Counted from the stretch's first letter, positions 24,536-50,976 are shown. The stretch is DNA of 64,000 nt from Planctomycetota bacterium (GCA_016235865.1 JACRIK010000001.1:1-64000); one strand, 5' to 3'. Numbers and translations are program-made. The notes: generated by a model from the letters alone, not told the origin.

Positions 24536-24564
24536 TTGACAAACCCTGGTATATGGGGTATATT
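24536..24564 (+). promoter_or_regulatory. strong promoter for the island surface-protein genes
   Basis: TTGACA (24536-24541), exactly 17 bp, TATATT (24559-24564). The predicted leader of about 85 nt contains the 24614-24635 hairpin and ends in AAAGGAG before ATG 24656. Confidence 0.82.
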
Positions 24565-24613
24565 ACTATATAATAAATATAAATCAATCATGCCTACTAA
24601 AGCGGGAGCTAAT

Positions 24614-24635
24614 GGTCCCGAAAGCATTCGGAACC
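24614..24635 (+). repeat. 5'-leader hairpin with CCGAAAGCATTCGG core, copy 2
   Basis: GGTCC/GGAACC arms surround the palindromic core CCGAAAGCATTCGG. It sits between the promoter and the ribosome binding site of the tail-fibre-like secreted gene, as copy 1 does for the 14415 gene. Confidence 0.75.
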
Positions 24636-24655
24636 AGAAGAAAAGGAGTTTTACT

Positions 24656-25750
24656 ATGCATAATAAAAAGTGGCAATGGTGGTTAACCTGGAGGGTGATA
24701 CCGATTCTCGGTATTTCTTTATTGCTTTATGCGGCGGATGATGTCAAGATGAAACTGACCGACAGCGCCGGCGTGTCCGAATTCGCGGTCCAGGATTCCA
24801 CCGGCGCATCCGTCTTCCGGGTAAACTCGGACGGCAATGTCACCTTAGGCGCCTGGCAGGGGACTAATATCGCGGTCGCCAATGGCGGCACCGGACAGGC
24901 AACGGCCAATGCGGCTTTTAATGCTTTAGCGCCGACACAAACTGGTAACGCAGGTAAATTCCTTACCACAGATGCGACTAATACCTCCTGGGGAACTAGT
25001 GTTTCCGGTGCAATCATTAATTTAAACGCAAGTTCCAATTTTGCCACTAATATCAATACCGGGACCTCTACCGGCGCGGTTTCCATAGGGAACGCGTCAG
25101 CGACTGGTATTTCCGAACAAGTCGGCACAGGCAACTATACTCTTAATGGTACTACCGCTTCAAATTATACCATTGGCGCTTCAACCACTACAGGAACGAT
25201 GACTATAGGGGGAACCGCTCAAACCGGCGCTATTACCCTTGGTTCATCTTCTGGAACGCAAACGTTGAATCTTGGAACCGGCGCCGGCGCTTCAATAGTA
25301 AGGATTGCCACTGGTGCAGGTAACAACGACATAACTATTGGTGGAGGAACAGTCGCCGCCGGAAATGGCGTGCGCATAGGCATTGGCAAGTTCACCGTGA
25401 ATAAGTCGGTAGCACCAACTATCGGATTAAACGCGAATACAACTGCGACAGTAGCTCAAATTCTTGACGCTGGTGTAATTGGCTTTGCGGCTTCTGCAGC
25501 TCGCACCTTAACATTTCCTACTGCTCAGGGAGCTACCGGATTGGTGCAAGCCCTGCCTGGAACCCCGGCCGTTGGAGATACGTTTACTTTTGTGGTCTTC
25601 AATACTGGCACTTTTGCCGTAACCTTGGTCGCTGGAGCTGGCGGCACTATTGTCAACACCAATACCATTAGCAGTACCACTGGTTCTAGGGTCGTAACCT
25701 GTCGCGTCACTGGTGTAACTGCGGGCTCGGAAACGATAAGCATTTATTAA
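24656..25750 (+). CDS. secreted tail-fibre-like beta-structured protein
   Basis: The product is 364 residues from ATG 24656, which has AAAGGAG at ideal distance; an in-frame TTG at 24536 is part of the -35 box. A signal peptide (WLTWRVIPILGISLLLYAA) precedes MKLTDSAGVSEFAVQDSTGASVFRV and NIAVANGGTGQATANAAFNAL, a segment typical of phage tail fibres and fibre-like surface proteins. A long Gly/Thr/Ser-rich stretch with 8-12-residue periodicity (TGAITLGSSSGTQTLNLGTGAG, abbreviated) then suggests a beta-helix. It is the first gene before the giant protein, 113 bp upstream, so co-expression is likely. The role is probably extracellular adhesion or structure. Confidence 0.72.
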   Translation: MHNKKWQWWLTWRVIPILGISLLLYAADDVKMKLTDSAGVSEFAVQDSTGASVFRVNSDGNVTLGAWQGTNIAVANGGTGQATANAAFNALAPTQTGNAGKFLTTDATNTSWGTSVSGAIINLNASSNFATNINTGTSTGAVSIGNASATGISEQVGTGNYTLNGTTASNYTIGASTTTGTMTIGGTAQTGAITLGSSSGTQTLNLGTGAGASIVRIATGAGNNDITIGGGTVAAGNGVRIGIGKFTVNKSVAPTIGLNANTTATVAQILDAGVIGFAASAARTLTFPTAQGATGLVQALPGTPAVGDTFTFVVFNTGTFAVTLVAGAGGTIVNTNTISSTTGSRVVTCRVTGVTAGSETISIY

Positions 25751-25863: not shown

Positions 25864-28800
25864 ATGAGATTTATCAGTTTTATATATTATCTTTGCATCC
25901 TTTGCGTCTTTGCGGTGCTAATGCCGCTCAGCGCCCGGGCTGCGGATGTAATTATTGATAGTCCTTCGGCCGTGATTACCATTGAATCATCAGCCGAGTT
26001 CACCATTTCGGGCACTATCACCGGCGCCGGCACCCTGGCCTCTACCGGTTCCAATAAGGTCTATGTCTCGGGCGACTGGGGTATTGCCAATTTCACACCG
26101 GCTAACTCCACGGTCTATTTTAACGGGAGCAGCGTCATCACCGCTACCAGCGCCAATAATACCTTTTATAATCTGGTCGTCAGCGGCAGCGCAAACGTGA
26201 GCAATTCGTCAGCAGTTGGCCTGGCAATAACCCAGGGTCTGACGATTAACGCATCTGCATCATTAAATCTTGGTAATGGTCTGGCGTATAGTGTGGCGCT
26301 GAATACTACTGTCTCAGGAACGTTGAATTTGGGCCTGAGCGAGTTGCAATCCAATGGCGACCTGACGGTTGCCGCCGGCGGCATATTGAATATGAACGGC
26401 ACATCACTAAGCCAGCAACCACAACTGAAGATGGCCAACGGCAGGGCTCTGCTGATAGACGGAACTCTAAATACCACCTGGTCCTCACCCAATCTGAAGC
26501 CGGTTATTACCGCTACCGCCTCCGGCGCTTACTATAGTTTTACGGTCAATGGCAAGGTGACGCTCAACGGGTTAATTGTGGGCAAGGTTGATGGTAACGG
26601 CTTGACTATCTCTGATGCGGCTGATACCACCAGCGATATGAATGATCTGGATTTCGTGTCTATGACTGCGGACGGCACGTGTTTGAGGGTACTGGAGACC
26701 TCAGCCGTAACCTATAATTTTAGTAATTTGACCTTTGATGACTCCATCTTCGGGGCCGGACCGAACCCGCCGGGATATAACATAGAAACCGTCTCGGCAT
26801 TCGTGACGGCCGGTGGGATTATTACCCTGCCCAATGCGACCGGCGCGGGCGCCGGGGACGATTACGAGAACGACGGCGGCAGCGGGATAGTTATACCCGG
26901 TTCAATCAGGTGGGACAGCGGGAATACCAATTACTGGACATCCGGCTCGGGCACGACCAACTGGGCAACGGCCGGTAACTGGACAAACGGAATTCCGACA
27001 AACTTACAGGATGTGGATATTCCCATAGTGGGAAGCGGATTATATCCGGCGATTGGCGGCACGACCAACCGCGTCTGCGGAAGTTTAACCGTGCGCAACG
27101 GCGCCTCGCTGACCATCCAGTTTTCCGGGACAAGAACCCTGAGCGTCAACGGCACGACCGGTAATGTCCTGATTAAGAACGGCGGCGAGATTAAGATTCT
27201 GACCGCCACCAGCCAATTAAGGGTCGCGGGCAGTTGGACTAATTACGGCACGCTTACGATTACCGAGGGCGATTTGACTTTCTATGGCACAACCAGCGCC
27301 TGCAGGATAGAAACGGACTGCATCGGCACAGGTAAGACCATAAAGTCGTTGCGTATCCCAACTGGAGCGCAGCTAAACATCGCCGATAACGTAAACGTTG
27401 AAGCCAGTGGCGCAGGGATGTTTTATCTGACCGGCACGCTAAACATGGGGAATAATGCAGCGCTTATTACTTATAACTCCTGGGGCGATACGACTGGCAC
27501 ATTTAACAGGGGAGTGTCTTCGACCGTTGTTTTACGGGGCAGCGGGAATATTCCGCCCAAGGATTTTCATAATCTTACTATAGACGGGACGTTTTCCCTG
27601 GCTTCAACGCCGAGGAATATTTATAACCACTTGGAGATTACATCAGCAGGTGATTTGTCCACCGGCGCCAACCAGTTAAATATTTATGGCAACTGGGTGA
27701 ATAACGGGGCGTTTAATGCCGGGACCGGCGAGGTGCAGTTTATTGGGACCGGCGCGCATGCGATTACCGGCACGACCCAGTTTAATATCGTACGTTTTGG
27801 CGGCACGGGTACGACTACTCTGCAAGGCGGGAGCCAGGTATCAGGAATAAATACGATAGACCTGCAGGCCGGGCATACACTTAATGGCAGTCCGGTGGGC
27901 GGTCCGGATGCCACATTGATTGTGCCGGCTGGTTGCACGTTGTCCGGCTCTGTGGTCGGCTGGAATCCCCAACAAGGCACCTTTATCTGGCGCAAACAGG
28001 ATGCAGAACAACAACTCATTGCCTTTAACAACGGTTATTATAACCTGACCATTGAATCTCCGGGCACGGCCTCGTCTAACAATTCCCTTAATATCGACAA
28101 CAATCTTTATATCAAGTCCGGGACCTTCAGCGGCGGAAGCGGGTTGACGCATAGCATCGGCGGTGATTGGAGCCAGGACGGCTCCTTCTCGGCCGGGACG
28201 TCTACGGTGCGGTTCACAGGCAGTGATTGCGAAATACTCAAATCGCCTTCCGTGGCAGGGACTATCACCTTTAATAACCTGACGGTTTCTTCCACCAATT
28301 TGACTAAGATTGAGTATGGCAAGTCGGTAACCGTAACCGGCACATTCAATATCACCGCCGGGACGTTTAATGCCGGCACTGCCACGGTCTTTACCACCGG
28401 CAGTTGGACCAATAGCGGGGTATTCCAGTCCGGCACTTCAGAGTTTATCTGGAATGGGACGACTATACCTGAACAGTCAGGCGGTACGGCGCACGAGGAT
28501 TTTTATTCTCTGACCATAAACGGCGCAGGCGCTCTTGATGGGACTAATTCTGATAAGATATTTACGGTTAGTGGAAACCTGAAGGTTTCCGCTACCGGTT
28601 CTCTTAATGCCTCTACAGGCGGTTACACCATTGAGGTCAAGAAGGATTTTGAGAATAACGGCACATTTACAGCCGGGAATTCCAAACTACTCCTGAACGG
28701 CACGACCAAGCAGACCCTGAAAGGTTCGGCGGCGCTCATTCTGAATAACCTGGAGATAAATAAGACCAGCGGTGATACTGCGGCTAAAACCGTGGAAATG

Positions 28801-31800
28801 GCCTTTGGATTAGCCGGAACAGACCTGACCGCCAACGGGACTACCGATATCCTGGCCGGTATCCTGGACTTCGGCTCAACCTTGGACACCTTTGTTTCAA
28901 CCGGTAATCTTACGGTAGGCAATGGTTCAGGCACAGATGATGCGACCCTGAAACTCCTGGGCGGCGTGACATTGCAGATGGGGAACGGAACGATACTGGA
29001 GGTCAAGACGCCGGATGGAATCATAGAGAGTGCCCAGAGCGGCTCTGTGCCTCTGATTACCTCAACCAATCCGGGTATTAACTTCTATTATGTTCGGGTT
29101 GCAGGCAAGACCAAGATTAACGGGTTGCAGGTGAAGTCATTGGGCTCGGCCGGTCTGTTTAGCGACCCGGCCGCTAATCACGGATTCACCATCCTGACTA
29201 CGGCCAGTGTTTATGCGGCCGGTGATACATATTTTGATCGGGCTATCTTTGACGATATCCAGAATTCCGGCACGCGCGATACCTACCTAAGGATTTTCAG
29301 GAATGCCTCCTCACCGCAGTTGGAGATGGATTTTAATAATCATACCTATGATGAAGGGACAGTGGATAGTAATGCCGATGTCAATGTCTATCTCAACCGA
29401 GGTTCCACCGGCTCCACGATTTTGCAGACCATCTCTTTAGGCAATAAGGGCGGCGGCAACGGCGAGCCATATGATATGCGGGACGATTCGGTAAATCCGG
29501 GTGATGACCCTGACCCGGGTTCTATCCAGTGGCCGGTGGAGAAAATCTGGACCGGACTGGCCAGTTCGGCCTGGAGCGGCGTTGGAAACTGGAAGTATCC
29601 GGACGGTTCTCCGGCCGACCCGCCCCAGGGTTCTGACTCGCTGACCATTCCGGCCAATCCGGACAGCAGCCCGGACCGCTGGCCGGTAATATCCGGCAAT
29701 GCCGCAATCAAGAATATCACGATGGAGTCGCCATTTAGCGGTAGCGCCACGACTATGCTGGCCGTTTCCGGCTCCTGGACCCTGACCATCTACGGCTCCT
29801 GGACCGTAAATACCAATGCCAACTTTGACCCCGGGACGTCCACGGTCGACTATGCCGGTTCATCAGGCCAGGGCGTGGTGGCCACCACTTATTATAACCT
29901 CAAACTTTCCAATACCTCCGGGCTGCAGATGGTCTTTGAGCCGATAGTGGTTTATAATGATGTGACGATTCTGGAAGGGGTCAACTTTATCGCCACGACC
30001 ACGGACGTCCGGGTAGGCGGTAACTGGAATAATTATGGGACTTTCTCTCCGGGCAACTGCCTGCTTAAGTTTAACGGCAACAGCGGCGGGCAGGAACAGA
30101 ACATCACCGGCGGACAATTCAAGTATCTGGAATTCAGCGGACTGGAGCCAAAGGTGTTGAACGGTAATATTGAGGCGCTGGGCGGTATCACGATTACAGT
30201 CGGGGCAACGGTCTCCGCGACCAACGAATCAGCTATTGATATCAAGCTAGGCGGTCATTTCATCCTCAGCGGGACGTTTTCAGCCGGGCTTTCAACTGTA
30301 ATATTCAACGGCGCAACAACGCAGGAATTGGTACGGCCTACAGGTGGAGCGGTCGTCTTAAACAATCTTAAACTGTTGAATACTGGAACTATTCTGAGAT
30401 TAGTCCAGCAGTCCGGCGGTCCAACAGGTGATAGTATTATGGTTACTACCAGGGACAATGCCGGCAACACCAACCTGGGTAATATCAATATCGGCAGCGG
30501 CACAACATTGGATGCCACGAATGACATAATTAACTGCGGCGGGAACTGGACCGTGAACGGAACCTTCACCTATTCCGGTTCAACCGTGAACTTCAACGCC
30601 TCGGCGGCCCAATCCATTAAGACCAACTCATCGTTTAATACGCTTGTCATTACCAATACCGGTTCAGGTTATGTAAGCGCCGAAGGCAACCTGACTATTT
30701 ATAATAATCTTAATGTCAGCGATGGGCAGTTCAAACTTGATATCGGAGCGGCCCTGGCGCATACGGTGTTAGACGATGTGACTATCTCGGCTGGCGCGGT
30801 GCTGGATATGGGCATTAGTCAATTGGCCATAGGCAGTAGTTCGGTCTTTGGCGATTTATCCATAAGCGGAACGTTTGTAATGTCCGGCGCGGCTACGGCC
30901 GCACCGACCCTGAAGATGCAAGGCGATTCGGCAACGGTTAACTACACGAATGCCATAAGCCGGTCGGACATTACGGTTCAATCAGGCGGTTTAATGCAAT
31001 GCCTCTGGTCAAGCGGTACCAAGCCGATAATTCAGGCGTATAACCCGATTGCGCCCGGGCCGTTCTATGGCTTTGTGGTTCAGTCCGGCGGGGCGATTGA
31101 TGTAGCCGGATTGGTTATTGATTCGGCCTACACCTATGATAGTGTCGGGGCATTTTATTCGGCGCTCCTGTTAGAGGCCGGTGCTATCTGTTCAGACCTG
31201 GACAATGTAGCTTATCAGAATGTCCAGGGCGGGAGCGGGCCGCGCGGGCTTCATTTCCGGATTGCCAGCGGCACCTATAACTTTGACGGCTGCACCTTTG
31301 ACGCCTCCTGCACGGTCAATGTCCGGATGGACAACGGAGCGCCGGCGCTTAACTTTACCAATTGGGGCGGCGCCCGGGGCGGCGGTAATTATGACGAGCC
31401 GGTAGTCGGGACAATAAACTGGACCACCAATTGCGTCTGGAACGGCGGCCTGTCAGCCAACTGGAGCATGGGTTCTAATTGGGATAACACCAACATTGCA
31501 AATACTACAGGAGAAAACGCCATTATCAACCGGGTTTTACCCAGCGGTTATAATCCCAGGGTAAGAACCGCGAGTTATAGCATCAGGAATCTCGTTATTA
31601 AGAACAGCAATACGGTCTTCATAGATGATACCACAGGCTATGACCTGACTGTGGCCGGCGATGTGGTTATAGAAGCAGGTGGCGGTATTACGATGAAGGA
31701 TACCACCGGCGCATTGTTATATGTCTCCGGTAATTGGGATAATCAGGGCGGGGTATTAGACCAACAATCAACCGGCGGTATCATTTATCTGAGAGGGACA

Positions 31801-34800
31801 AATAATACTATATCCACCGAGAACGGATTCAGGAATTTGTCTTTAGATACTGCGACCGCCAGTTATACCTTGACCGACGGCGCTGTGGTTGCTATCAGCG
31901 GGACGTCTGCTTCATACTTTATCAATACCGCGGCCTGGCTTTCTGGCGGGAATAACACCAACCAGGCAACTCTTAAGGCATCGGTCTGGACAACTAATCT
32001 GGGCAGGTTTGGAGCCGGAAATTCCAAGTTTACCTGGATGAGCACGTCTGATGTCCCATTAGAAACATATTACGACCTGCAGATTGGGAGTAACATAGAC
32101 AGCTATAATATTGCGACCACATATACTTATGGGGTGAACCAGACAATCAACCGTCATCTTATAGTGGATTTGGGCTCAACCCTGACGCTTAACCAAACCG
32201 GCGGAACGCTCACCGTTAAAGGTAATATCTGGGTTAAGCAGGGCGGAATACTTAATCTTAATAATGCCACGGTTCGGCTGGAAGGTGATTTGATTGTGGA
32301 TGGGACTATTAATATGGGCGCATCTACACTGATATTTGGCGGCGGTGTGGTCCAGAAGATAAGGAGCACAATAACCCCGCCGTCCCTGACGCTTAATAAC
32401 ATTCAGGTGACTACTACAACTACGGCAGAACTCAATATGCCGATTGCGGTTACCAATATCAATTCCGGTCTGGCCTCGCCGCATGGCATTATCAAGCTCA
32501 ATGCATATCAACTAACGATAACCGGTTTCTGGAATGATGCGGATAGTGGCGATAATCTCTCGGAAGACACCGGAACGGTATATTTCTATGGCACGAGTGC
32601 TACGATACCCAATGAGACCTGGTATAATCTGGCCGTCGGCGCAGCCAGCGCTGATACGACATACATCCTACCAACTAATAGTACGGTAAAGAATGATATC
32701 ACCTTTAATGAGAATGGGATACTTAACAGCGGTGGTTTTATACTCTATGTTGGCCGGCACTGGGTGGACAACGGGACAGAAGATAACTTTGTGGAAGGGG
32801 CCGGGGCCGTGGTATTCAACGGCTCTGTCGGCCAAAACATCAGTAGCGACACCTTTAATAACCTGACAATATCCAATACCGGGGTGGCGGTAAACGTAAT
32901 AGCCCTTGGCAAGATAGGGGTGAACGGAAATCTGGTCATTAGCAGCGGCACATTGGATTTAGGCAGCGGCTTTACCGGAGTAAACAAGCATACGGTAGGC
33001 GGTTATTGTTATATAAATAACGGTAAGTTGAAACTTAACACCTCGTCCATGTCTATAACAGGATTATTAAGAATCGGAGACGGGACAAGCAGCGGTATTG
33101 TGGATATGACCGGAAATTCCGCGGATGACCCGGATTTGACCTCAACCGGCGGGGTGGATATAACCGCCAGTGGGATACTGGATATGACCGGTTCATCCGC
33201 ATCAATTTCAGCCGGCGGCAACTGGACAAAAGCTGGCAGTTTCAATATCGGCCAATCCAAGGTGACCTTAAGCGGGGCCGGCAATTATATTACCGCCAGC
33301 GGGAGCAGTGATTTCTATGCCTTGTACATAAATAGCGGCAGTACCATTACGGCCTCGACCAATTGCGGCATCACCAATAACTTGGTTATTACCGGGCAAT
33401 TCTATACATCCAGCAAGACGATTGCCGTCAGCGGGAACATCGCTAACAGCGGCACGTTGACGGTCAATAACTCCGGGCTATTGGATTTAGAGGGCAATAT
33501 TGCCGGTGGGATATTGGGATTTGGGAGTGGAAGTTGTCAGATGCAGATAGCCGGGAGCTTTAGCCCAGCCACGCTTAATGCCGGAGGCGGGACGATTGTC
33601 TTTGATAATACCGCGGCCGGGCAGAATATACCGTCATACACTTACAACAACCTGACCATGTCCAAGGCCGGCCAGATAGGCACAGCTACAGGCAATATAA
33701 TTGTGAATGGCGAATTGCGAATAGCGAATGGCACGTTTGATGTTGATGACACATCTGTCAAGGTGCATAACATAGGGAGTTTTTCCAACAGCGGGACAGT
33801 CAGGATGGACCTGGCTTCGACTATAACTGTAACTGGAGCAACCACTAATACCGGGACAATCCAATTGGGAATTGCGAATAGCGAATTGCGAATTGCAGGC
33901 AATTTGAATAACACTTCAGGAATAGTTAATATAAGCAACGGATTACTTGATATCAATGGTAACCTAAGCAACGGGACGCTGGATTTCAATAACAGCAGTG
34001 GTACACTACGGATTGGCGGGGTATTTGCACCGAGCACATTAAACGAAGACCAGGGGACAATAGTATTTAAGGGGTCAGGGCAGACCATACCGGCCGAGAC
34101 CTATTATCACCTAAAGACCGGGAGCATCAATGCGACATATACCTTAGGCGGGGACATATCTGTTAAAGGAGACATGACTATAGATGAGACGGATGATGGG
34201 ACCAAATCAACATTAAGCACCGGCAGTTACGGGATAAGCATCACCGGCAATGCCATATTCAATGGTTCGTTTACTGCCGGAAGCGGAACAGTGGAATTCA
34301 ATGCCGCGACAGGCAGCGTCTCCATAAGCAAGGGGACAAACGGTGATGCGATAATATTCAGTAATTTCAAGGTCAATGTCGGGACAAACGCAGTATTACA
34401 ACCATCAATCGGTTTCGATTGCAGCGGAAATCTATTGGTTTCCAGCGGTAAATTGGATTTAGGCACTGCTTTAGGTTACATCATTACCGGCACAAGCACG
34501 GCTAATAACGGCATTATAGACATAAACGGAAGCACACTTACCTGCAAGGATAATCTAACCATTCAGGCATCAGGCAAGTTGATAATGAGGAACAGCGGCA
34601 TATTGAAAATGGCAGACAGCAAGGCCATAGCCATTAATGGCGGATTTGAGACCTATTGGACCACAGGGCAAACAAAGCCAAAAATAACCACCTCAGGGAC
34701 AGTCGGGACGAATGCCTATTCATTCAATGGCAATGCAGGCAGCGACGTAGACATCAGCGGATTGACCGTAGAGAGCATAGATGCCAGTGGTATAAGGATA

Positions 34801-37800
34801 AACAGCGGGGCGACCATAGTGGACATAGACGACGTGGCGTTTGCCACCCAGGTAGCGCCGACCGGCGGGGCGGCATTAAACCTGCAGGCAACCGCCGGGT
34901 ATGCCACTTCGCAGTCGTTTACCTTCTCGGATATGAGTTTTGACGGCAGTTACAAGGGCAGTGCAATAACCGCCACAGCCACGGTTGGCAATGTGGTGGT
35001 GGCCAATAACGCTGTCAGCGTGGTTATCACGATGTCCAATGCCATAGACAATGTGGCGCCGCCGCCCGGCAAGGAGGAATGGGATTGGGACAGCGGCAAT
35101 GTAACGGTGGATTGGATACAGTTAAACACCTGGCTGGGCAATACCACGAGCTGGAATTTAGCCGGGAACTGGACCAACGGCATACCGGACGGCAGCAAGG
35201 ATATTCTGATACCAACGGGTCTAAGTAATTATCCGACACTGGATACGACCGGTAATTGCATTGGATTGAAGGTGGAAAACGGGGCAAGCATAACCTTAAG
35301 CGCGACATATAACTTTGAGATAAAGGGTGATATCTCAATAGAAGGCACCGGGGCATTTACGGCATTAAACGGCAAGGTGATACTGAACGGGACCGGCAGC
35401 CAGACCATTGACTTGGGCACGGCCGTAGCCAACAGATTCTATAATCTGGATATAAATAAGGCCTCAGGGACAGTCACGGTATTAAGGGACTTAACCATAG
35501 ACAATAACCTGGTCCTGACCGGGACGTTAAACAGCGGCAATAAGACCGTAACCATAAACGGAGCCGCGACTAACAACGGGACTATCCAGGTATCAGGAGG
35601 GATATTGGACCTAAACGGGAACCTGACCGGAGGCGTAGTAGACGGCGGGACTGGGACAATCAGGTTTGCCGGTACGACCTTTGCGCCGGCCACATTCACC
35701 GCGTCAGTATCAACCATTATCTTTGACAACAAGGCCGCAGACCAGAATATCCCGACTATGACATATAATAATTTAGAGATAGATAAATACTTAGGCAGCG
35801 TAAGTTATACGGCCAATGCCGCAAATACTGGTATCAATATCCAGGGTCGGTTTAAGGTGACGTCCGGGATATTCAAGGCAGACCCGGCGAGTAGCGGATG
35901 GAGCCACAGCATAGCCGGTAATTGCGAATTTGGGATGGCGAATGGCGAATTCAAGGCCGGGCAGGGCACGATAACCTTAACCGGAGTATCGCAGGTAATC
36001 ACGCCCAATAATAATTTCTATAGATTAGCAATAACCGGTTCAGCGCAGGTAACATCTGGATATAATCTCAAGGCAGATAACAACCTGGTAATTAAGAGTG
36101 GAGCAACGCTTATTCTAAACGGCAATACCGGACATACAATAGGCGGGAGTGTAACAGTAGAAAACACCGGCAGATTAGACCTGAACACCGGGGCATTGGC
36201 AATAACCGGAGGGCTTAACAACTCTGGCACCATAGATATGGACCAGGTATCTAACCTGAGTTGCAATGCCTTTACCAACACAGCCAGCGGCATATTGGAT
36301 TGCGGGACAAATACAACCAGCCAGATAACGGTGTCCGGCAATTGGAACGACTCTGGCACGGTCAATCCAGGGAATTCCACCATAACGCTGACCGGTGGGG
36401 CAGGCAGTACAATCGCCACGGCTGCTTCCACCGATATTTATAACCTTAACGTTAGCGGTAATTATACTAGTGTGAACGGATTGGATATAGAGGGTGACGT
36501 GAAAATCACCGGTACGTTTAATCCGGATGTTTATTCGCATAAGATAGCGGGAAATTGGGATGATTCTACCGGGGTCTTTGCCGCTACGGGTGGAACAGTA
36601 ACCTTTGACGGGGTCGGAGCAAGAACCATCACGACTAAAGTGGCAACCGGTGATAATAAATTCTACAATTTGAATATTGGCGATGATGCGAGTGCGCCTT
36701 CAGTAGTGATTTCCACAGGGGGCGACTTGCGGGTTGCTGGAGTCTTGGCTATTAATACTGGTAGTTTCCTGACCTTAAACAGCAATACCGGTCATAACAT
36801 TACCGGTTCTGTTACTATAGATAGCGCATCAGGTTTATTTATTAAGACAGGGCAACTAACCACTGGTGCTATTACTAATAACGGCACGATTGACTTATCC
36901 GAAACCACGGCGTCAAATGGTAAACTTATTGCCGGTTTAGTTACGAATAATAATTCCATCACCTTTGGCACGAGTGGAGGCGGTAAGATTACTTGCAATG
37001 GGTCATTCATCAGCAGTGCGGGAACCTTTGCTAAAGGCGTTTCAACCGTAGAGGTTAGTGGCGCCACCAGCAATATCAATTTGCCTCTGGCAAGAGGAGC
37101 TTTCTACAACCTAACCATTAGCGGGACAATCAGCGCCGCTTCATCATTGCTGATTGATAATAACCTGTCGGTTAATGCGGTCTGCAGCTTTAATCTCGGC
37201 ACATCATTAAGCACGACCGTTACAGGAAATATATCTGTTTCCGGAACGCTCAATGGCAATAATTCCCTACTGGTATCAAACGGGAATCTGACGGTAAATG
37301 GCGGAGGTGTTTTGCAGATATCAGGTTCTAATACCAGTGGGCAGGAAGGCCAACTCAAGGTGGCAAATACCAAGACGGTTAGTATCCAGGGATTATTCCA
37401 GTCCAATCCGTCCGGCAGTTTCACCTATAAGCCTATCATTACACGTTCCGTGAGTGGCGCAAGATATTCATTCTTGGTGGAGAACGGCGGTGGATTGGAT
37501 GTCAACGGGCTCATTCTTGAGTATGCAAACAGCAACGGTTTGTCTGTCGCATCTACTGCCAATTCGGCTAACATTGATATTGATGACTGCGTATTCCGTT
37601 ACGTCCAGGAAAATCCGGCCGGTACACGGCAGGGTAATGGGGCCAGGCATCTTTATATCGGATTTACTTCCGGCAGTTTTGCCCAGACCTTTGATGGCTG
37701 CACCTTTGATACTTCGTTTGGGACAACCACCGGCAACAATGTAGTGGGCGCATCAACCGGCGGCTCTACTCAGTCATCCTTCTCTAATTACGGAGGCAGC

Positions 37801-40800
37801 GGCTCTGGGCCGGTCTATGAATGGGAAGGTAATGCCAACGTTTCTATCGGCTGGTTGGGTGCGACCACTTGGGAGGGCAATAATTCGACGGCCTGGAGCG
37901 ATAACGGGAACTGGTCAAACGGCGCGCCAGGCACTGAGAATTCCGCCGTTATCCTTTATCCGGCGTCCGGACGTTTGCCAGTAATGGACCAGAACGGTTC
38001 CTGCGCATCCCTGGAAGTCAGGAATAACGGGAGTTTGGAAATAAATGGAAAGGTGTTGACCATCACTGGTAACTTTACCTTGGCGGTAACCGGCTCGTTT
38101 CAGATGACGACTGCGAATAGCGAGGTGCGTGTTGCCGGCAATTGGACTAACACGGGCGGAGCCTTAAACCAGACCGCCGGGTTGATTGTATTTAACGGCT
38201 CCAATTCAGTTATTTCTTCAGAGCAGAATTTCCGTTCCGTGAGCGTAACTGGCACGGCCTTTCTGGCAACCGGTGCGTCAGTAAAGGTATCAACTGGATT
38301 TACCATCCAGGGCGGGAGTTTCTCATTGAATAACGCCACATTTTATACGTCTAACTGGACCAAGACAGGAACTTTTAACGCTAATACCGGTACCTTTATT
38401 TGGTTGGGTACCGCATCCGTGCCGGTAGAGAACTACTATCATCTCCAGGTCGGAGACGGCTCCGCCGCCTTTGCAACAACCTTTGTTAACGCTACTTATA
38501 ATATCACCAAGAATCTTACGATACGAATGGTTGCGCCGAATTATGCGGATGCCCAGAATGCTGCAATCAAAATAGGCGGTAATTTGACCATTGATGGTAC
38601 CACGACCAGCGATAATGTCTTTAAGCCATCCGGCAGCGGTATCATATTTAATGGCGACACCACACAGACTATAGCCGGAACGGCCCAGCCGCCATTCATA
38701 TTAAATAATGTCAGTGTTTCAGGCACGACAACTATACTTTCACTTCAGGGGAATGTCAGAGTTACCAATATCAACTCTGGTCTGGCCTCGCCGCACGGTA
38801 TTATCAAGTTATCAGGATATCAGTTAACCATAACCGGACTCTGGAACGATGCGGATGCCGGAGACAATCTGAGCGAAGACACCGGCACGGCCTATTTCTA
38901 TGGCACGAGTTCGACTATCCCCAATGAAACCTGGTATAACCTATCAGTTGGAGCTCCGAGCGTTGATACCACCTACACCCTGCCTGCTGATACCACCGTC
39001 AAGAATGATATCACCTTTAATGAGAACGGTATACTCAACAGCGGAGGATTTGCGCTTTCTGTCGGCCGGCACTGGGTGGATAACGGCAGCGAGGATAATT
39101 TCACGGAAGGAGCCGGCGAGGTGCGGTTTAACGGCGCAGTCGGGCAGAATATAGCCGGCGAGACCTTTAATAACCTGGCCATATCCAATACCGGGGTAGC
39201 GGTGAATGTATCAGCCCTTGGCAAGATCGGGGTGACCGGCAATCTGGTGATTAGCAGCGGCACACTGGACTTGGGCATCAATTTTACCGGCGTAAGCAAA
39301 CATACGGTAGGCGGTTATTGTTATGTAAATAACGGTAAGTTGAAACTCAACACCTCGTCTATGTCTATAACCGGATTATTAAGAGTCGGAGACGGGACAA
39401 GCAGCGGGATTGTAGATATGACCGGGAATTCCACGGACGACTCGGATTTGGCAGTCACGGGCGGTGTAAATATTACCACGACCGGCACGCTGGACATGAC
39501 CGGCTCATCGGCATCAGTTTCAGCCGGCGGCAACTGGACAAAGGCCGGCGCCTTTAACCTGGGCCAGTCAAAGGTGACGCTAATCGGGAGCAACAATTAT
39601 ATCACCACAACCGGCGCCAGTGATTTCTATGCTCTGCACATAAACAGCGGCAGCGTTATCACGGCCTCAACCAATTGCGGCATCACCAATAACTTGGTTA
39701 TTACCGGGCAATTCTATACATCCAGCAAGACAATTGCCGTCAGCGGGAACATCGCTAACAACGGCACGTTGACGGTCAACAACTCCGGGTTATTGGATTT
39801 AGAGGGCAATATTGCCGGCGGGATATTGGGATTTGGGAGTGGAAGTTGTCAGATGCAGATAGCCGGGAGCTTTAGCCCAGCCACGCTTAATGCCGGAGGC
39901 GGGACAATAGTATTTGATAATACCGCGGCCGGGCAGAATATACCGTCATACACTTACAACAACCTGACCATATCCAAGGCCGGCCAGATAGGCACAGCCA
40001 CAGGTAACATAATTGCGAATGGCGAATTGCGAATTGCGAATGGTACGTTTGATGGAGATGATACATCTGTAAGACAGCATAACATTAGTTCTATCTCTAA
40101 CAGCGGGACGGTCAAATTAGATCTGGCTTCAACCATAACTGTAACTGGAGCAACCACTAATACCGGGACAATCCAATTGGGAATTGCGAATAGCGAATTG
40201 CGAATTGCAGGCAATCTGAATAACACTTCAGGAACAGTTAACATAAGCAACGGATTACTTGATATCACTGGTAACCTAAGCAACGGAACGCTGGACTTCA
40301 ATAACAGCACCGGGACGTTGCGGATAGGCGGGGCATTTGCGCCGGCTACCTTAAATGAAGACCAAGGGACAATAGTATTTAAGGGAACATCCCAGACCAT
40401 ACCGGCCGAAACCTATTATCATCTCAAGACCGGTAGTATCAACACGACCTATACCTTGGGCGGGGTTATTATAGTCAAAGGAGACATGACCATAGACGAG
40501 ATAGACGATGCGACCAAATCAACGCTAAACACCAATAACTATGGTATTACTATTACAGGCAATGCCGTATTCAATGGCTCATTTACTGCCGGAAGCGGGA
40601 CGGTGGAATTCAATGCACCTTCAGGAGGTGTATCCATAAGCCAGGGGACAAACGGAGATGCTATTATATTCAATAATCTCAAGGTCAACATAGGAGCGAA
40701 TACGGTATTACAACCCGAGAGTGGATTTTCCTGCAATGGGACACTTGATGTTGCCGGCGGCAAGTTGGACCTAGGGAACGGACTTAATTACACCATAACC

Positions 40801-43800
40801 GGCACGTCCGCAGCCAGCGGGACCATAGACATCAATGGAAGCACGCTTACCTGCCGGGACAATCTGACCATAAACGCATCAGGCAAGTTAATAATGAGAA
40901 ACAGCGGTGTTTTAAGGATGGCAGACGCCAAGGCCATAGCCGTAAATGGCAACTTTGAAACCTATTGGACAACCGGGCAAACCAAACCAAAGATAACCAC
41001 AGCCGGGGTAATTGGGACAAATGCCTATTCATTCAATGGCAATTCGGGCAGCAGCGTAGACATCAGCGGATTGACTGTAGAAAGCATAGACGCAGATGGC
41101 TTAAGGATAAACAGCGGGGCAAGCATAGTGGATATAGACGACGTGGCGTTTGTAACACAGGTAGCTCCGACCGGTGGCGCGGCCCTAAACCTGCAGGTAA
41201 CAGTCGGGTATGCCACGCCGCAGTCATTTACTTTTTCGGATATGAGTTTTGATGGGACATACAAAGGTACAGCACCAGGGCCATCTGCTACAATAGGCAA
41301 TGTGGTAGTAGCTAATAATAGTGTCAATGTGGTAATCACCATGTCCAACGCAGAAGATGTGTTACCGGGTAAGGAGGATTGGGATTGGGACAGTGGTAAT
41401 GTGGTGGTGAATTGGATACAATTAAATACCTGGGTGGGCAATACCTCGAATTGGGATTTAGGGATAAACTGGACGAACGGGATACCTGATGGGACAAAGG
41501 ATGTATTGATACCAACAGCGCCATTAGGGGGCAATTTCCCGACCCTGGATACGACCGGCAGTTGTATTGGGTTGAAGATAGAGAACGGGGCGAGCATCAC
41601 CTTAAGCAACACCTATAATTTAGAGGTCAAGGGCGATATTTCAATAGAAGGAACCGGGGCATTCACCGCATTAAACGGCAAGGTGATCCTAAACGGGGCC
41701 GGCAGCCAGACCATTGATTTGGGAACGGCAATAGGCAATAAACTCTATAATCTGGAGATAAACAAGACCTCTGGGACAGTCACGGTCTTAAGGAATTTGA
41801 CCATAGACAATAATCTGTTCCTGACCGGCACATTAAGCAGTGGTAACAAGACCGTGACCATAAATGGGGCTACGACCAACAACGGGACTATCCAGGTATC
41901 AGGAGGAATATTGGACCTGAACGGGAACGTAACCGGAGGCATATTAGACGGCGGAACCGGGACCATCAGGTTTGCCGGCACAACCTTTGCGCCGACGACG
42001 TTCGCTGCGTCATCGTCAACCGCCATATTTGACAATAAGTCAGCGGACCAGAACATACCGGCAATAACTTATAATAATCTGGAGATAGACAAATACTCTG
42101 GCGTAACGAGTTATACCGCCAATGCAGCGAATAGCGGGATAAATATCCTGGGCAGATTTAAAGTGACGACAGGGATATTCAAGGCAGACCCGGCGAGTAG
42201 CGGATGGAGCCATAGTATAGCCGGTAATTGCGAATTTGGGATGGCGAATGGCGAATTCAAGGCCGGGCAGGGTACGATAACCTTAACCGGAGTATCGCAG
42301 GTAATCACGCCGAATAATAATTTCTATAGATTGGTCGTAACCGGTTCAGCGCAGATATCATCGGGATATAATCTGAAATCAGATAATAACCTTACAGTAA
42401 AGAGCGGCGGGACGCTGGCTTTAAATAGCAATACCGGGCATACAATAGGGGGAAGTGTAAGTATAGAGAATACCGGCAGATTGGACCTGGGTACAGGCAC
42501 ATTGGTCATAACCGGCGGGATTAACAACAGCGGCGCGGTGGATATGGACCAGGTGTCAATCTTAAGCTGCAATGCTTTTACGAATACTGCCACCGGCGTC
42601 CTGGATTGCGGTGCGAATACGGCCAGCCAGATAACCGTCTCGGGCAACTGGACTGACTCCGGCACGGTCAATCCGGGGAATTCTACAGTGAATCTGACAG
42701 GTAATTCCAATACCATCACCACCGGTTCGTCCACCGATTTCTATCACCTTAATATTAATGGTAGTTACACGGCCTATAATGGACTGGACATAGCCGGCAA
42801 CATAAATATCAATACGGGGATTGGTTTTAATGCCGGTAGCTTCACCCATCGCGTTGCAGGTAACTGGAACGACTCTTCGGGCGTCTTTACCGGCGGTACC
42901 TCGACGGTTATTCTGGTTGGCACCACCCAGTCAATCAATACTGATGTCGGTACAGGCAATAACCGGTTCTACAACCTGACTATCGGCGACGGTATTGCCA
43001 CTCCATCGGTTTCTGTTGTAGCAGGCAAAGACCTTGAGGTTTCAAATAATCTGGTTATCCGCAGCGGGCAACTGACCCTGAACTCAAATACTGTTCATAC
43101 AGTCGGCGCATCACTTAGCGTTACCGCCACCTTGAATACCTCCACCGGTAAGATTACCATCAGCGGTCCGATCACCAACAGCGGCGTGATAGACCTGAGT
43201 TCGTCCAACTCAATTGTCCAAGGCCTTAGGTCAAATGGTTTGATCAATACCGGCACGCTTAATTTCGGTGTCTCAGGCGCCGGGATGATAGAATGCGACG
43301 GCAACTGGTCTGATACCGGCAGCTTTACCTTAGGCAATTCTACGATAAAGATTATGGGCGCAGGCAGGACCATCAAGGCAAACCGCTCAACCGGTGATTT
43401 CTATAACCTGACCGTTGTCGGTAGCGCCTCGATTGACAGCAGTTCGGCTAACGGACTGGACATTGACGGCGCGTTGAAGATAAATACCAACGGTTCGTTG
43501 GACTTGGGCGCCGGATTTGTCAATGATATCGCCTCTATCTTTGAGGTCGGCGATGCCTCTACGGCCGGCGCTTTTAATATTAACAATTCTAAACTCACGC
43601 TTAACGGTAATCTGACGGTTTATCCGAATTCCACGCTCCAAGTCAGCGGCTCCAATGCCGCGGCCCAGGTCGGTGAATTGAGGATGGCCAATAACACCAC
43701 GGTCTACATCCAGGGATTCTTCCAGTCCAATCCGTCCGGCAGTTTCACCTACAAGCCCAAGGTTACCCGCGCGGCTACCGGCGCCAGATATGATTTTATC

Positions 43801-46308
43801 GTGCAGTCCGGCGGCGGGATTGACCTGAACGGTCTTATATTTGAATACGCCAAGAAGGGCGGCCTGACCGTCCAGCCCACGGCTTCTGCAACCAACATGG
43901 ATATTGACGATGTTGCTTTCCAGTATGTTGAGGAAGACCCGGCCGGCACCGGCCAGGGCAATGGCGCCCGGCATATATACATTGGATTCGCGTCAGGAAC
44001 CGTGGCGCTCAACTTTGATAACTGCACGTTTGACACCTCGTTCGGCGCAACCACCGGCAACAATATCGTGGCCGTCAATACCTCCGATTCTACAACAATC
44101 AATTTCACCAACTGGTCCGGCGCCGGAGCCGGTGATTCCTACGAGTGGCAGGGCACCAATACCAACATTATCTGGATTGGCGATGTCCTCTGGCTGGGCG
44201 GCGCATCAGGCGCGGAAACTAACTGGAATAGTGGCGCCAACTGGTCAACGGGCAGCAAGCCGGGCGAAGGCAGCAACGTGGTCATCCAGGACCGGGCCTA
44301 TGATCCCGGTTTCAATGAAGCGGTAACCGTGGCATCTTTGGTCATCCAGGACAACGGTGTGCTCAATATGGGCGGCGCCTACCAACTAACCGTCAACGGC
44401 AATATCACCATAAACAGCGGTGCCATCGGCGGCCGGATAAATATTACCAATGCCGGCGCGGTCTTACGAGCCAAATCAGATCTGCTGGACAACACCTCGA
44501 CCGGCGGCATCAACCAAACCGCAGGTAAAATCATCCTGACCGGCAGTAATAACGTCTTCTATGCCCGGACCGTCAAGACGCTGGAAATTGGGGATGGCAC
44601 TTCGGCCATCACCATTACCGTGCCGGCTGGCAAAACCTCAGCTATTGCCTCCAACGGCACCCTGACTGTAAAACCACAGGCCACCCTGATTCTGAATAAT
44701 GCTACGTTCAATATGGCTAATGGCTCGACTCTTAATGTCAACGCCAACAGCACTTTTAAGGCATCTAATTCCTCTAATCTGGCTACGCCGGCGCCAGGCA
44801 CAGACCGGTTCTATTTTCTTGCCTCTGGTAATATTGACCTTGATGGTGTGACCATACGCAGTATGATGACCAACGGGCTGGACATCCAGCCGGGCGCTGC
44901 TATCCAGAATCTGAAGAACATCGCTTTCTATAATCATCCTGGCGTAGCTTCAGGCCGCTTTATCACTATTCCCCTGAATGATCTGGATACTGATTTCCCG
45001 GGCTGTTACTTTGATACCATTATCACCGGCTACAATGTCTCGGCCAGCGGCTCGGCATCCGTGCTCAGGTTTGAGAATTATAATGCCGGTCCGGGCGCCG
45101 GCGACATCAGGGATTATGACGACGATGCGGATGATGACGGCGTGCCGGACAGCGGCGGCGCCTTGGTTAACTGGTCGGAAAGGTCGGTTTTTGAGACCGC
45201 CTCAACCGGCGGCACCCAGGGATTCCCGGTTGTGGCCTATGACCTGAATACCTATGCCTACTACGGCACCTATGTGGTTTCCCGGGACATTGCCGGCACC
45301 ACCGACCGCCTGGCCGTGCTTAACGGCAACGGCTTCCAACAATATGCCTACGACGTCAGCCAGTCCTACGGCGACATTATCTTATTCCCGTGGTATTATA
45401 CCGAAGGAACGGCGCACACGGTCTATTTTGGTACGAGTGGCGGCTACCTCTTCCGCCTACTTGACACGGGCGCTGCCTTAAATCTGAGCACCGGCTGGCC
45501 GGTTAGGGTCTGCGATGAGATAACCTCAGCCGTAGTTCCGGACGGTACTAATATCTATTTCGGCGGAATAACCGGCGGTACGCCTAAAATTTACGGGGTT
45601 GAAATAACCACCCGTGCGGTTCCGTTAAGCGCCACGGTAACCTCGCCCATTAGGGCCACGCCGTCTTGGGACAAGAATACGGAAGGATTGACTTACCTCT
45701 TCGCCGGTTCTGATAATCCCACCCCGGTATTATACCGGGTGAATGTTACCGCCCATGCCATTGATAAACAGAATATGAGCCCGTTTGGCAGTGTCCGCGC
45801 CCCGACTGCTTACTGGCCCTGGACACAGGGGATCTATGTGGGTGATTATTCGGGCCGGATGCACGGAGTAAACGCCTGGTCGACTGAATTTACTAATTTG
45901 TCCGGGTTCTCTTTTGATTCCGGAGCCTTTTCTATTACCACCATGGCGTCCGTTGAATATTTTTCCGGGAATGGCGAAACCAAACTGCTCTATGCGGATA
46001 TGGGCGGTAATTTGCATATTCTCGGAATTACCGGCACGGCGGTTGCCTATAATCCGGGCAGTGGTGCCTATCCGATTCAGCTGGGCGGGGGCGTGGCTAT
46101 AGAATCATCCCCGCTGCCGGATAATACCGGCCTGATTTACCTGGGTAATAATAACGGCAAGGTGTTTATTGTTAACGAGTCCGCAAAGGCCGTAATAAAA
46201 ACCTATTCATTCGGTGCTGGCGTAAAAATCGGCGATATCAGCTACGACGGAGAGAACAGCCGGTATCTGATACCGACCAGCACCGGCCGGATTTACTATT
46301 TACAATAA
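25864..46308 (+). CDS. giant secreted repetitive beta-helix protein (6,814 residues)
   Basis: The single uninterrupted frame of 20.4 kb starts with a signal peptide (residues about 1-26, ending SARA). The body is built from hundreds of short beta-strand repeats of the form '[20 protein letters not shown]' / 'VTFNNLTVS', predicted right-handed beta-helix, rich in Gly/Thr/Asn/Ser and nearly Cys-free. Seven boundary motifs of the form W-x-G...W...G-N-W-x-N-G occur near residues 349, 1223, 1853, 3084, 3997, 5184 and 6104 and seem to start modules. Residues about 2190-3510 and 4294-5610 are near copies. From about 6436 a different C-terminal domain with propeller-like repeats ([31 protein letters not shown]) runs to the end. 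No membrane anchor or sorting tail is seen. The most likely role is a cell-surface or extracellular fibre/adhesin, which is inference. Confidence 0.88.
32430..36400 (+). repeat. giant-gene internal duplication, copy A
   Basis: Matches 38742-42700 at an offset of 6,312 bp (2,104 codons) over most of its length and 6,306 bp near its end. The 300-bp stretch from 33361 is almost identical to that from 39673, while flanking parts are clearly diverged. Confidence 0.9.
38742..42700 (+). repeat. giant-gene internal duplication, copy B
   Basis: Partner of 32430-36400. Shared landmarks include GGTCTGGCCTCGCCGCA (32467/38779) and GACCCGGCGAGTAGCGGATG (35881/42187). Indels are multiples of three, so both copies are maintained as coding sequence. 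Confidence 0.9.
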
Positions 46309-46309: not shown

Positions 46310-49300
46310 ATGAGACTAATAACGATTATTCTTGTTCTTTGCGTCTCGGCGGTGAATCTTATTCACGCCGATGATTGGACCTCGCTGGGCAACGACGCCA
46401 CTCGCGCCAGAAGCACCGAGGAAAAACTCTCCGACACCTTTATTCCGGACTGGCAACATACGGTTACTGACAGCATAACTTCGTCTCCGGCAGTCGCAGA
46501 CGGATGCGTGGTCTTTGCCTGCCGTGATGGCGCAGTCCGGGCGCTGAAGGAAACCGACGGCTCCCTGCTCTGGACCTCGGCTATCAGCGGCGATATCATC
46601 GCCTCGCCGGCCATTTATCAGGGCCGGATCTATATTCCGTCGGACAACAAGGTGCATTGTCTGCGGCTTCTTGATGGCGTTCCGCTCTGGAACTATCAGA
46701 CCACCAGCACCGACATTTCCTCACCGCTGGTCCTGAATAACCGGATTTATCTGGGTTTAGGTTTCCCCAACCAGAAGGTCATTGCCATTGATATTACAGC
46801 GACGGCCACGCCGGCCTGGCAGGCGCCGACCGAACAGATTGTCTATTCGTCTCCGGCTATATCAGGCGCAACATTAATCATCGGCTGTGACAGCGGCCGG
46901 TATTACGCCCTGAACACGAATACCGGCTCGGAAACCTGGTCATATCCGACCGGCGGGGCAGTCCTGCTCTCATCGCCGCTCATCAGCAACACCAGTGTCT
47001 ATCTCCTGCCCGGCGGCAATGACCTTAATTTCTACTCAATAGACATTGACGACGCTAATTGGCCTGTATCAAATTACCAGATTGCCCTGGCTGACCCGGC
47101 ATCAGGAACGATTGTCGGTGATATTATCGCTACCAAACTGGCCACCTCATCGCCCATAAAGGCAGGGGACTATGTCGGATTCACGGTTCGGTTTGATTAC
47201 TCGGTGGATACTGATTCCGACACCATTGCCGACCAGTATGTGCTCAACGAATACGCCTTTGCCATTGACCCGGTTACGCCGACTGCCTCAGTTAAATGGC
47301 AGGTGGCGTTAGGCACCCTCATTACCGCCAACCAGAACAACATCCCGCCTTATGGCCTGTGTCCGACCCCGCTGGCTATGCAGAACCAGTCCGGACAGAC
47401 CGTGCTGGCAGTTGCCTCATCGCTCTCATCCGAGTTGCGGGTCCTCGGCGCAAGCAACGGCGCCATACTCTGGAATTATACCCTGGATTCAGCCACCCAG
47501 TCATCGCCCGTTGCCGCCAACGGCCGGCTGCTTGTCGCCACTAAGAACGGCTCGCTCTACGCTTTCCAGTCAACAAACAGCAGCCCGCAGCCGGTATCAA
47601 GCGGCTTCTCACCGGCTACCGGAACCACCATCACCGTCGGCACCGCTACCTTTACGCCCACGCTTACCTGGTCTTCGGCCACTGACACCAATGACGCGTC
47701 CGTGACACTGCAATATCAGGTCAGAATTGATGATGATGGTGAGGTCATAGAAAGTTACGACTCCATAACCACCACCTCAGCCGGGATTACCTCTATCACC
47801 TTTGCGCCGATTCCGATAACCAGCACACTCCAACTGACCTATTCCATCCGGACCATAGACCCGTCCAACGCATATTCTGCCTGGTCTGACCGGCAGACCT
47901 ATTCTGTATTCCTTGATACCACTGCGCCTGATGCGCCGGGCAACCTGATGGCCACGCCCAGCAACGGTTATGTCAATCTGTTTTGGACTGCCTCGCCCAG
48001 CACGGATACGGCCGGATATCTGGTGGCCTACGGGGAAATATCCGGCACATTCGGCTCCTATCTGGCTATCGGTAATGTGACCAATTATCAGGTCACCGGC
48101 CTGACCAACGGAATCACATATGTCTTCAGTGTCGTGGCTGAGGATATGGTCGGCCTGCAGAGCAGTCCGGTTGAGGCAACCGCCGCGCCGGACTATCATA
48201 TCTTCCTGAACGGCGCGCCGTATGAGACGCTATCAGATGCCGTCAGCATTGCCCAGTCTGGCGACACGATTACCTTGAGTCCGATAACCTTTGTTGTTCC
48301 GGGAACTTTATATCTCAAGCCGGGCGTCAGCATCTCTGGTTATGCCCCGCACCTGACCATACTGCAAGGCCCGAGTATGGCCACCCTGTTTGAGTTGACT
48401 GGTCCCACGGTCGTTACCAAGGGCGTGATTTCTAATCTTACCCTGACCGGCGCCGGCATCGGTATTGACGCCTCATCCTACGGCCTGGAGGTCAGGAACG
48501 TCATCCTCCGGCAGATGGGCACCGGAATCTTCGGCAACGATACATCCGACCTCATTATCGTCAACAATACCTTTATTTCTCATACCGACGCGGCCATAAA
48601 TGTGGCCGGCCAGACCGCGATTCGCAACAATATCATCGTCCGCAATGCCATCGGCATCTGGTGGTCCGGCATTGAGGCCGACCTGCCCAAGTTATCCATT
48701 ACCTACAACGACGTCTATGGCAATGCCACGGACTATCTTGATTGCACGATCGGGAATGGAAACATCTCGGAGAATGTGGCATTCAGGAACGAGGCAGCTA
48801 ATGATTACCGCGAGGTGGTTGGTTCCAAAACAGTGGATACGGGAAGTCCGTCCGACACGTATGCATTGGAGCCGTCACCCAATGGCGGCCGGATTAATAT
48901 GGGCGCATTCGGCAATACGCCTTATGCCACGATTTCCCAGAGTGCCGGAAGTAGCGCTGCATACAAGGGAATGAACAATGGCTGTTTCATTGCCACGGCC
49001 GTCTATGGCAGTTATAACCATCCCAATGTCATGGTCCTGCGCAACTTCCGGGACAGGCATCTGATTACTAATGCCCCGGGCCGGCGCTTTGTTAGTTTAT
49101 ATTATAAGGTCAGTCCGCCGATCGCGGAGTATCTGAAACAATCCCCTGTTAAGGCGGGTGTTGTACGTCTGGCCCTGACACCGGTGGTGTATGCCATGAA
49201 ATATCATTTTACAGTATTAGGGTTTTTCATCTTGTTAGCAGGAGTATTATACTTCACCACAAAGGTCACAAAGAATAAAATCCCCTCTATCAAGAGGGGA

Positions 49301-49315
49301 TTTAGGGGTGTGTAA
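46310..49315 (+). CDS. secreted PQQ-type propeller / FnIII / beta-helix protein with CFI-box C-terminal anchor
   Basis: The product is 1,001 residues. Signal peptide at 1-20. Residues about 25-430 are PQQ-like propeller blades ([43 protein letters not shown] split by blade). About 440-530 is beta-rich, 540-630 a fibronectin III domain ([21 protein letters not shown]), and 630-880 a parallel beta-helix ([21 protein letters not shown]). At about 892-965 comes the CFI-box: [19 protein letters not shown] and [12 protein letters not shown], followed by one membrane helix. This C-terminal module is known from several uncultured phyla as a probable surface-sorting anchor. The last ten residues ([11 protein letters not shown]) are encoded by a palindromic repeat. 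It starts 1 nt after the giant gene, so the two are co-translated. Confidence 0.88.
49279..49315. repeat. TCCCCTCT..AGAGGGGA palindromic repeat at a gene junction
   Basis: TCCCCTCTATCAAGAGGGGA is followed by TTTAGGGGTGTGTAATG. It encodes the last residues and the stop of the CFI-box protein and provides the TAATG overlap with the next gene. The same element occurs at 49675-49713, 50263-50296 and, as an inverted pair, 61796-61881. Confidence 0.85.
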
Positions 49316-50403: not shown

Positions 50404-50976
50404 ATGAAATGCCCTTCCTGCGGTTCTGACAATGGTGATATGTCGAAGTCATGCAATCTCTGCGGCAAGATATTAAAGGAAACGCCAAGCCCAGACGTTC
50501 AGCAGGGGCCTGAGCCCGGCGGACAGGACGACAAACTGGCCCAACTGAGACGGGAGTACGAGGCCAGAACCGAGGAACAGGCGCGCCAGGCAAAAGAACG
50601 CCGTCGCTATAAGATGAGAGACCACGGGATTACCGGCATCATCACATTTTTTATATTAAATACGCTGGCCGGGTTGCCTGGCAGTTTGCTCCCATGGAAT
50701 TTAGTACTGAATGCGGTCTTAAGCGCCATCTTCGGTTTCCCGGTCGGCTATCTGATAAGCCGCTGGGGCGGCGGCATTGGCAGGGGTGTTCTTATTTCCT
50801 GGGGATTCTTTGCCCTGTTATTGCTGGTCGTATCGGCGCCGTCAGTTTTGAGCGGCAATCTTACCTTGAATGTATTCGGCCTGTGGATTGGAATCACGTT
50901 GCTTAAGGGCCTGATTATGGGCATCATACCAGGGGCAATTATCGGGTACCACGTGATGCTTTCTGAGGGCGGGTGA
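50404..50976 (+). CDS. zinc-ribbon membrane protein
   Basis: The product is 190 residues, preceded by AGGAG. CPSC...CNLC (residues 3-21) forms a zinc ribbon. A charged helix (LRREYEARTEEQARQAKERRRY) follows, then four membrane segments with Gly-rich ends (GFPVGYLISRWGGGIGRG). This layout recurs in small planctomycete-like membrane proteins of unknown role. It begins 21 nt after the nucleotidyltransferase gene. Confidence 0.72.
   Translation: MKCPSCGSDNGDMSKSCNLCGKILKETPSPDVQQGPEPGGQDDKLAQLRREYEARTEEQARQAKERRRYKMRDHGITGIITFFILNTLAGLPGSLLPWNLVLNAVLSAIFGFPVGYLISRWGGGIGRGVLISWGFFALLLLVVSAPSVLSGNLTLNVFGLWIGITLLKGLIMGIIPGAIIGYHVMLSEGG

Follow-up and report, generated by a model that had tools for sequence, protein, structure and literature searches.

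A two-gene cassette for a cell-surface fibre is, on balance, the favoured reading of a pair of adjacent genes found in a 64,000-nucleotide stretch of Planctomycetota bacterium DNA (GCA_016235865.1 JACRIK010000001.1:1-64000), referred to as the window. The first gene (25864-46308) encodes a giant secreted protein of 6,814 residues, predicted to be a beta-solenoid rod exported by the Sec pathway. The second gene (46310-49315) starts one base past the giant's stop and encodes a partner with a C-terminal sorting signal of the CTERM type, by which the rod would be held at the envelope. The giant carries no anchor, whereas the partner does, and the two proteins probably work together as fibre and holder at the cell surface. 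All genes, domains and duplicated stretches listed here with window coordinates lie on the plus strand; "rod" denotes the giant and its homologues, and searched genomes, contigs, loci and families are given G, C, L and f numbers.

The 20.4-kb frame of the giant begins with ATG and comprises 6,814 codons with zero internal stops. G, T, N, S and A are abundant in its product, of which Cys makes up 0.6%. The N-terminus has the pattern of a Sec signal peptide, as called from hydropathy and a cleavage-site pattern, and the rest of the protein is free of hydrophobic segments. The signal peptide and an N-terminal cap homologous to module ends occupy the first 342 residues (M0; 25864-26889). These are followed by six full modules (M1-M6; 26890-44190, starting at 26890, 29536, 31429, 35110, 37858 and 41431), each of approximately 630-1,230 residues and opening with a W...NW motif. 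A seventh W...NW start introduces the final solenoid stretch (M7; 44191-45036), in which the first 200 or so residues show a short-strand beta pattern, and the protein ends in a PQQ-type beta-propeller domain (45037-46305). The seven module starts follow the pattern W.G...W....NW and lie near residues 350, 1229, 1859, 3090, 4003, 5190 and 6110. The propeller was assigned from sequence matches of the C-terminal 425 or so residues to PQQ-type propellers, including 3hxj (E = 2e-13) and designed PQQ-like propellers (E down to 1e-47). An initial annotation of the window had described an intact frame of this length, a signal peptide and a propeller-like C-terminus, all of which are borne out by the open reading frame, hydropathy and structure matches. 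It had also listed seven W..GNW module starts; seven W...NW starts are indeed present, with GNW literal in four of them and SNW, INW or ANW in the remainder. With a single frame of more than 5,000 codons, a Sec signal and repeats of extracellular type, the protein has two of the features by which giant extracellular proteins of the Planctomycetes-Verrucomicrobia-Chlamydiae (PVC) superphylum are recognized. As to the third, a host lineage within that superphylum, PF07596, a family which we take to be associated with Planctomycetes, was present in 18 of 40 relatives and in 0 of 14 controls, which is no more than suggestive.

The modules of the giant are likely to be beta-solenoids. The AlphaFold2 model of module M4, calculated from an alignment of six paralogous stretches of the same giant, was all-beta, with a mean predicted local distance difference test score (pLDDT) of 80 and short strands approximately every eight residues through most of its 927 residues. 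Module-by-module structure prediction had been suggested as a check in the initial annotation, and for M4 a continuous beta-solenoid was predicted. The hydrophobic residues of the giant likewise show a lag-8 correlation. At 8 residues per strand, or about 24 per turn, and with a rise of 0.48 nm, a solenoid of 6,350 residues would be roughly 125 nm long. When the M4 model was compared with the PDB using Foldseek, the top of a list of weak matches was occupied by right-handed beta-helix autotransporter passengers (among them Ag43, SepA, Hap and Hbp). Searches with the module alignment gave no match among solved structures and none among viral contigs, and the sole match among genome contigs was a Flavipsychrobacter locus at 28% identity.

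The partner comprises a signal peptide, a PQQ/BamB-like propeller, immunoglobulin (Ig)-like and fibronectin type III (FnIII) domains, a right-handed beta-helix, a CFI-box-CTERM domain and a transmembrane helix, in agreement with the CFI-box-anchored propeller/FnIII/beta-helix protein first described 1 nt behind the giant. The CFI-box-CTERM domain (48983-49189) scores 105 bits for NF041770, where the cut-off is 40. Hydropathy places a signal peptide at one end and a transmembrane helix after the CFI-box at the other, which is the C-terminal arrangement that characterizes NF041770. The length of propeller, FnIII and helix is conserved among relatives at 31-49% identity. CFI-box domains also occur on other proteins, with four in this genome and 24 matches in G009, which is in keeping with a sorting signal common to several proteins. 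No paper was found in the literature under the term CFI-box-CTERM.

To compare gene order in relatives, as the initial annotation had also suggested, the 23 genomes of the class and about 250-300 genomes from the phylum as a whole were scanned with two profiles, one built from the C-terminal domain of the giant (A2) and one from the partner (A3), and the positions of neighbours were checked on the relatives' contigs. A rod followed by a partner on the same strand was found 11 times in 8 genomes, which belong to 5 families and 2 classes according to the kinship labels attached to the searched genomes. The pair-bearing genomes are G000, G001, G003, G004 (twice), G005, G010 (three times), G039 and G178; the two pairs on G010 C88 were identified from A2 matches in the genome search together with the ends of open reading frames. 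In G004, a further partner (C93) lies behind a beta-helix protein which was missed by the profile but looks similar in sequence. Judged from gene order in these genomes, the rod/partner pair is recurrent rather than obligatory.

This incomplete linkage bears on another explanation, namely that the neighbours are independent surface proteins of one operon, each sorted alone, with the giant released into the medium. Such an arrangement is doubtful, since the two genes are found side by side, in one order and orientation, 11 times over two classes despite changing flanks. It nevertheless has evidence in its favour: clustering is common among surface-protein genes, and each of the two genes occurs without the other in some genomes, which also weighs against the cassette. 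Rods without an adjacent partner occur in G019 (two), G010 C162, G039 C522 and G203 (two), so that the partner is missing at 6 of the 17 rod loci whose downstream side can be read; at two more rod loci the contig ends. One of these six rods has its own tail, while the other partner-less rods that could be read to the stop end at the propeller. Conversely, four partner-type genes outside the class (G039 C117, G203 C948, G067 and G042) have no adjacent rod. Other points against the cassette concern structure and export: no Foldseek match of the M4 model to the PDB was significant (best E 0.016, none reaching E 0.001), and the model of the giant's C-terminal propeller region, built from an alignment of window sequences, had a mean pLDDT of 48 and no confident fold. 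The match between the propellers of giant and partner in hhalign was marginal (probability 36%), which leaves a common origin of the two unsupported. No outer-membrane export machinery was identified near the giant gene. Finally, docking of the giant on the partner is inferred, as is the function of the pair.

The distribution of anchors is consistent with the cassette of rod and holder. The tail of a distant partner in G010 reads GGGCF...TM...RRR (where TM is the transmembrane segment) and consists of a Cys-box, a hydrophobic helix and Arg residues; it differs from the tail of the window partner and is analogous to it. In G019, where no partner was detected, one beta-helix and propeller protein has gained an Ig-like region and a GGGCG-TM-RRRRR tail. 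This single case supports the view that the rod needs an anchor, either in cis or in trans. The G019 protein was considered as a fusion of rod and partner and rejected as such, because its tail is an Ig-like region with a Cys-TM-Arg end and lacks homology to the partner. The protein (L060 10900-19362, on G019 C186) has 2.8 thousand residues and a MYXO-CTERM-like tail, and polysaccharide-export-type genes lie about 8-10 kb upstream of it.

Under the cassette reading, the product of the first gene would be a Sec-exported rod of beta-solenoid modules, each opening with W...NW, with a PQQ-type propeller at its end and lacking an anchor. The second product would serve as the holder, its propeller, Ig/FnIII domains and short beta-helix being tethered to the envelope through the C-terminal Cys-box and transmembrane sorting signal. 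The C-terminal end of the rod may dock on the holder, perhaps propeller to propeller, and would thereby be kept at the cell surface. In this orientation, the solenoid would project outwards, exposed as an adhesive or structural fibre, after export across the outer membrane. Between its conserved ends, the rod would change in length by gain, loss and duplication of modules.

A different function has been proposed for other giants of the superphylum, which are interpreted as predation weapons or carbohydrate-degrading complexes (PMC12057145). A degradative or predatory role would fit the presence of a papain-family protease gene a few genes downstream of the giant. However, this gene is not syntenic in relatives, and comparison of all 6,814 residues with Pfam and NCBIfam gave zero significant matches and no enzyme domain; the sole Pfam row, Pirin_C_2 (E 0.063), is under its cut-off. 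Such a role for the giant is accordingly regarded as improbable.

Slightly less plausible again is a two-partner or chaperone-type secretion system, in which the BamB-like propeller of the partner would aid folding of the giant or its passage across the outer membrane instead of anchoring it. BamB assists the assembly of beta-barrel outer-membrane proteins, and the N-terminal half of the partner matches BamB structures with E about 1e-38. Against the BamB family model, however, the partner scores 102 bits, below the equivalog cut-off of 285, and no barrel or POTRA match was found in it. Moreover, the partner has FnIII domains, a beta-helix and a C-terminal anchor, all of which are absent from BamB. 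Both the partner's N-terminal domain and the giant's C-terminal domain belong to the same fold family as BamB/PQQ propellers; their domain context differs, and the partner is not an equivalog. No two-partner secretion (TPS) domain was matched in the giant by Pfam or NCBIfam at E up to 0.1, and neither an autotransporter barrel nor a TpsB is encoded in or beside the giant, whose neighbour is the propeller/FnIII/helix protein.

The giant gene contains a 4.0-kb internal duplication that the initial annotation did not mention. The first copy (32449-36467) is 81.6% identical at the nucleotide level to the second (38761-42770), from which it is offset by 6.3 kb. The copies differ at approximately 18% of bases, and the ratio of nonsynonymous to synonymous substitution rates (dN/dS) is 0.24 between M3 and M5 and 0.20 between M4 and M6, which indicates that both copies have been retained under purifying selection. 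Exact internal repeats reach 86 nt at most and no 100-mer occurs twice, so that the duplication should be within reach of ordinary read pairs. In G005, which belongs to another family of the same order, a homologue consisting of three frame pieces on two contigs is co-linear with giant residues 372-6814 at 55-67% identity, with a summed length of approximately 7,100 residues. A 140-nt exact repeat marks both its contig end and its frame break. The overlap of the two contigs at this repeat is exactly 140 nt long, and part of the repeat sequence is duplicated where the frame breaks, for which an assembly join is the simplest reading. The long form, including the internal duplication, would therefore predate the split of these families or have been transferred whole. 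Purifying selection on the copies and the co-linear homologue in another family together argue that the giant frame is more than a product of chance. That the giant is a misassembled or decaying gene without a product is very improbable and was rejected, given a frame open over 20.4 kb, exact repeats of at most 86 nt in the window and dN/dS of about 0.2, while the one observation in its favour, the G005 homologue split over two contigs with a frame break, sits at a duplicated overlap as an assembly join would give.

The size of the rod varies widely. In the shortest complete form, a homologue of 995 residues in G001 from the same family, the N-terminal cap, final solenoid stretch and propeller are retained, but the W...NW modules are absent. 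In G003 the homologue is short too and its frame is broken, and homologues of family f26 lie in open frames of about 890-1,890 residues. At the other extreme are two frames in G010, open over 4,840 and 8,478 codons, each with a partner behind it. Both ends are common to the short and the long forms, and length ranges without conservation from 995 to about 8,470 residues. Giant size is therefore not a defining feature. The simplest reading is that modules were inserted into a short ancestral protein and duplicated, with secondary loss.

The initial annotation had placed the giant at the head of a larger operon thought to make, anchor and process the fibre. The gene identities it gave for the downstream region were correct, as judged from matches to PF14907 and papain C1, a CxxC motif and a lipobox. 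As a functional unit, however, the six-gene operon was rejected, since reliable co-travel is limited to the first two genes. The anchoring part of the proposal is supported, on the strength of the pair in relatives and the tail of the G019 protein. The making and processing parts are not supported: in none of the relatives examined does a homologue of the zinc-ribbon, lipoprotein or papain gene lie next to the pair. In the window these three genes follow the pair at short distances and may share its transcript. The zinc-ribbon membrane protein (50404-50976) has CxxC and about 4-5 hydrophobic helices, with its Pfam match under the cut-off. The C-terminal domain of the lipobox protein (51015-51842) is widespread in the order and stands directly beside secretin-type genes in three genomes (L050, L051 and L063; secretin Pfam-confirmed in L051), which may hint at a link to outer-membrane secretion that is not specific to this locus. 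The papain-family protease with FnIII (51862-53940) matches papain C1 with E 1.6e-10 and looks intact, with the catalytic Q..C, H and N visible; its C-terminal region is weakly DUF4159-like.

The nucleotidyltransferase gene PF14907 (49315-50382) is an optional, recurring neighbour of the pair and not a demonstrated component. It stands behind the pair in one relative, G005, with radical-SAM and signal-peptidase-like genes beyond it on the opposite strand. In G067, it lies approximately 7 kb from the lone partner-type gene and is accompanied by HprK-like and radical-SAM genes, in what appears to be an exopolysaccharide locus. PF14907, radical SAM/SPASM and HprK-like or signal-peptidase-like genes were seen close to partner genes in L042 1-3600 and L068 8386-11528. 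Short palindromes (CCCCTCTNNTAAGAGGGGATTTAGGGGTGTG and related forms) are inserted in frame in the nucleotidyltransferase gene and occur at the 3' end of the partner gene (49282-49312, 49679-49709, about 49846-49876, 50090-50120 and 50263-50292); the first form has 12 genomic copies, and its reversed control pattern has 0. Upstream of the giant, a tail-fibre-like secreted protein is encoded at 24536-25750. Secreted proteins with phage-tail-fibre-like repeats also precede the rod in G003 (L053 251-1660) and on G010 C90 (L059 16585-19998); the window and G003 proteins have their N-terminal 47 residues in common at 72% identity, and the one on G010 C90 has no detectable homology.

Several known systems resemble parts of this arrangement. 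Giant1-5 of Apilactobacillus kunkeei are secreted surface proteins of 3,000-8,000 residues with an elongated predicted shape, attached by the C-terminal end, and Giant1-4 contain a beta-solenoid domain (PMC12863079). In those proteins the solenoid is an N-terminal domain and the C-terminus is presumed to contact the wall directly through an SH3b-like domain (PMC12863079), whereas nearly the whole length of the window giant appears to be solenoid, its C-terminus is a PQQ-type propeller without an SH3 match in Pfam, and anchoring seems to fall to a separate protein. Planctomycetota, Omnitrophota and Elusimicrobiota stand out for the unusual frequency of their proteins of more than 5,000 residues (PMC11573180), and predatory or degradative roles have been proposed for those of the superphylum (PMC12057145). 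The window giant is like them in size, in being extracellular and probably in belonging to the same superphylum; those described have adhesion, dockerin or carbohydrate-active domains, and the available portions of both reports do not mention pairing with a CTERM-anchored propeller partner (PMC11573180, PMC12057145). Sorting to the diderm cell surface by a C-terminal Cys motif is established for MYXO-CTERM and myxosortase (PMC11980579), with which the proteins described here have in common a short Cys motif, a transmembrane helix and, in G010 and G019, an Arg-rich end. The window partner differs in that its Cys motif is separated from the helix by approximately 70 residues, and the G010 and G019 proteins look closer. 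Autotransporters and two-partner adhesins of the Ag43, Hap and EtpA type are long right-handed beta-helix adhesins and lead the weak Foldseek matches of the modelled module. No description of the rod/partner cassette was found in the literature searched, whose coverage excludes most preprints and subscription journals; the undescribed system first proposed can be claimed for these two genes and not for the larger set, whose members do not co-travel.

It can tentatively be proposed that a widespread two-component system exists on diderm cells, in which a beta-solenoid of approximately 1,000-8,500 residues docks by its C-terminal propeller on the propeller of a CTERM-anchored partner, and in which length may evolve without a change of anchor. 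Giant proteins are frequent in the superphylum. A recurrent partner with an obvious sorting signal, together with homologues of approximately 1,000 residues that keep both ends of the rod, would make the anchoring of giants testable with ordinary recombinant proteins.

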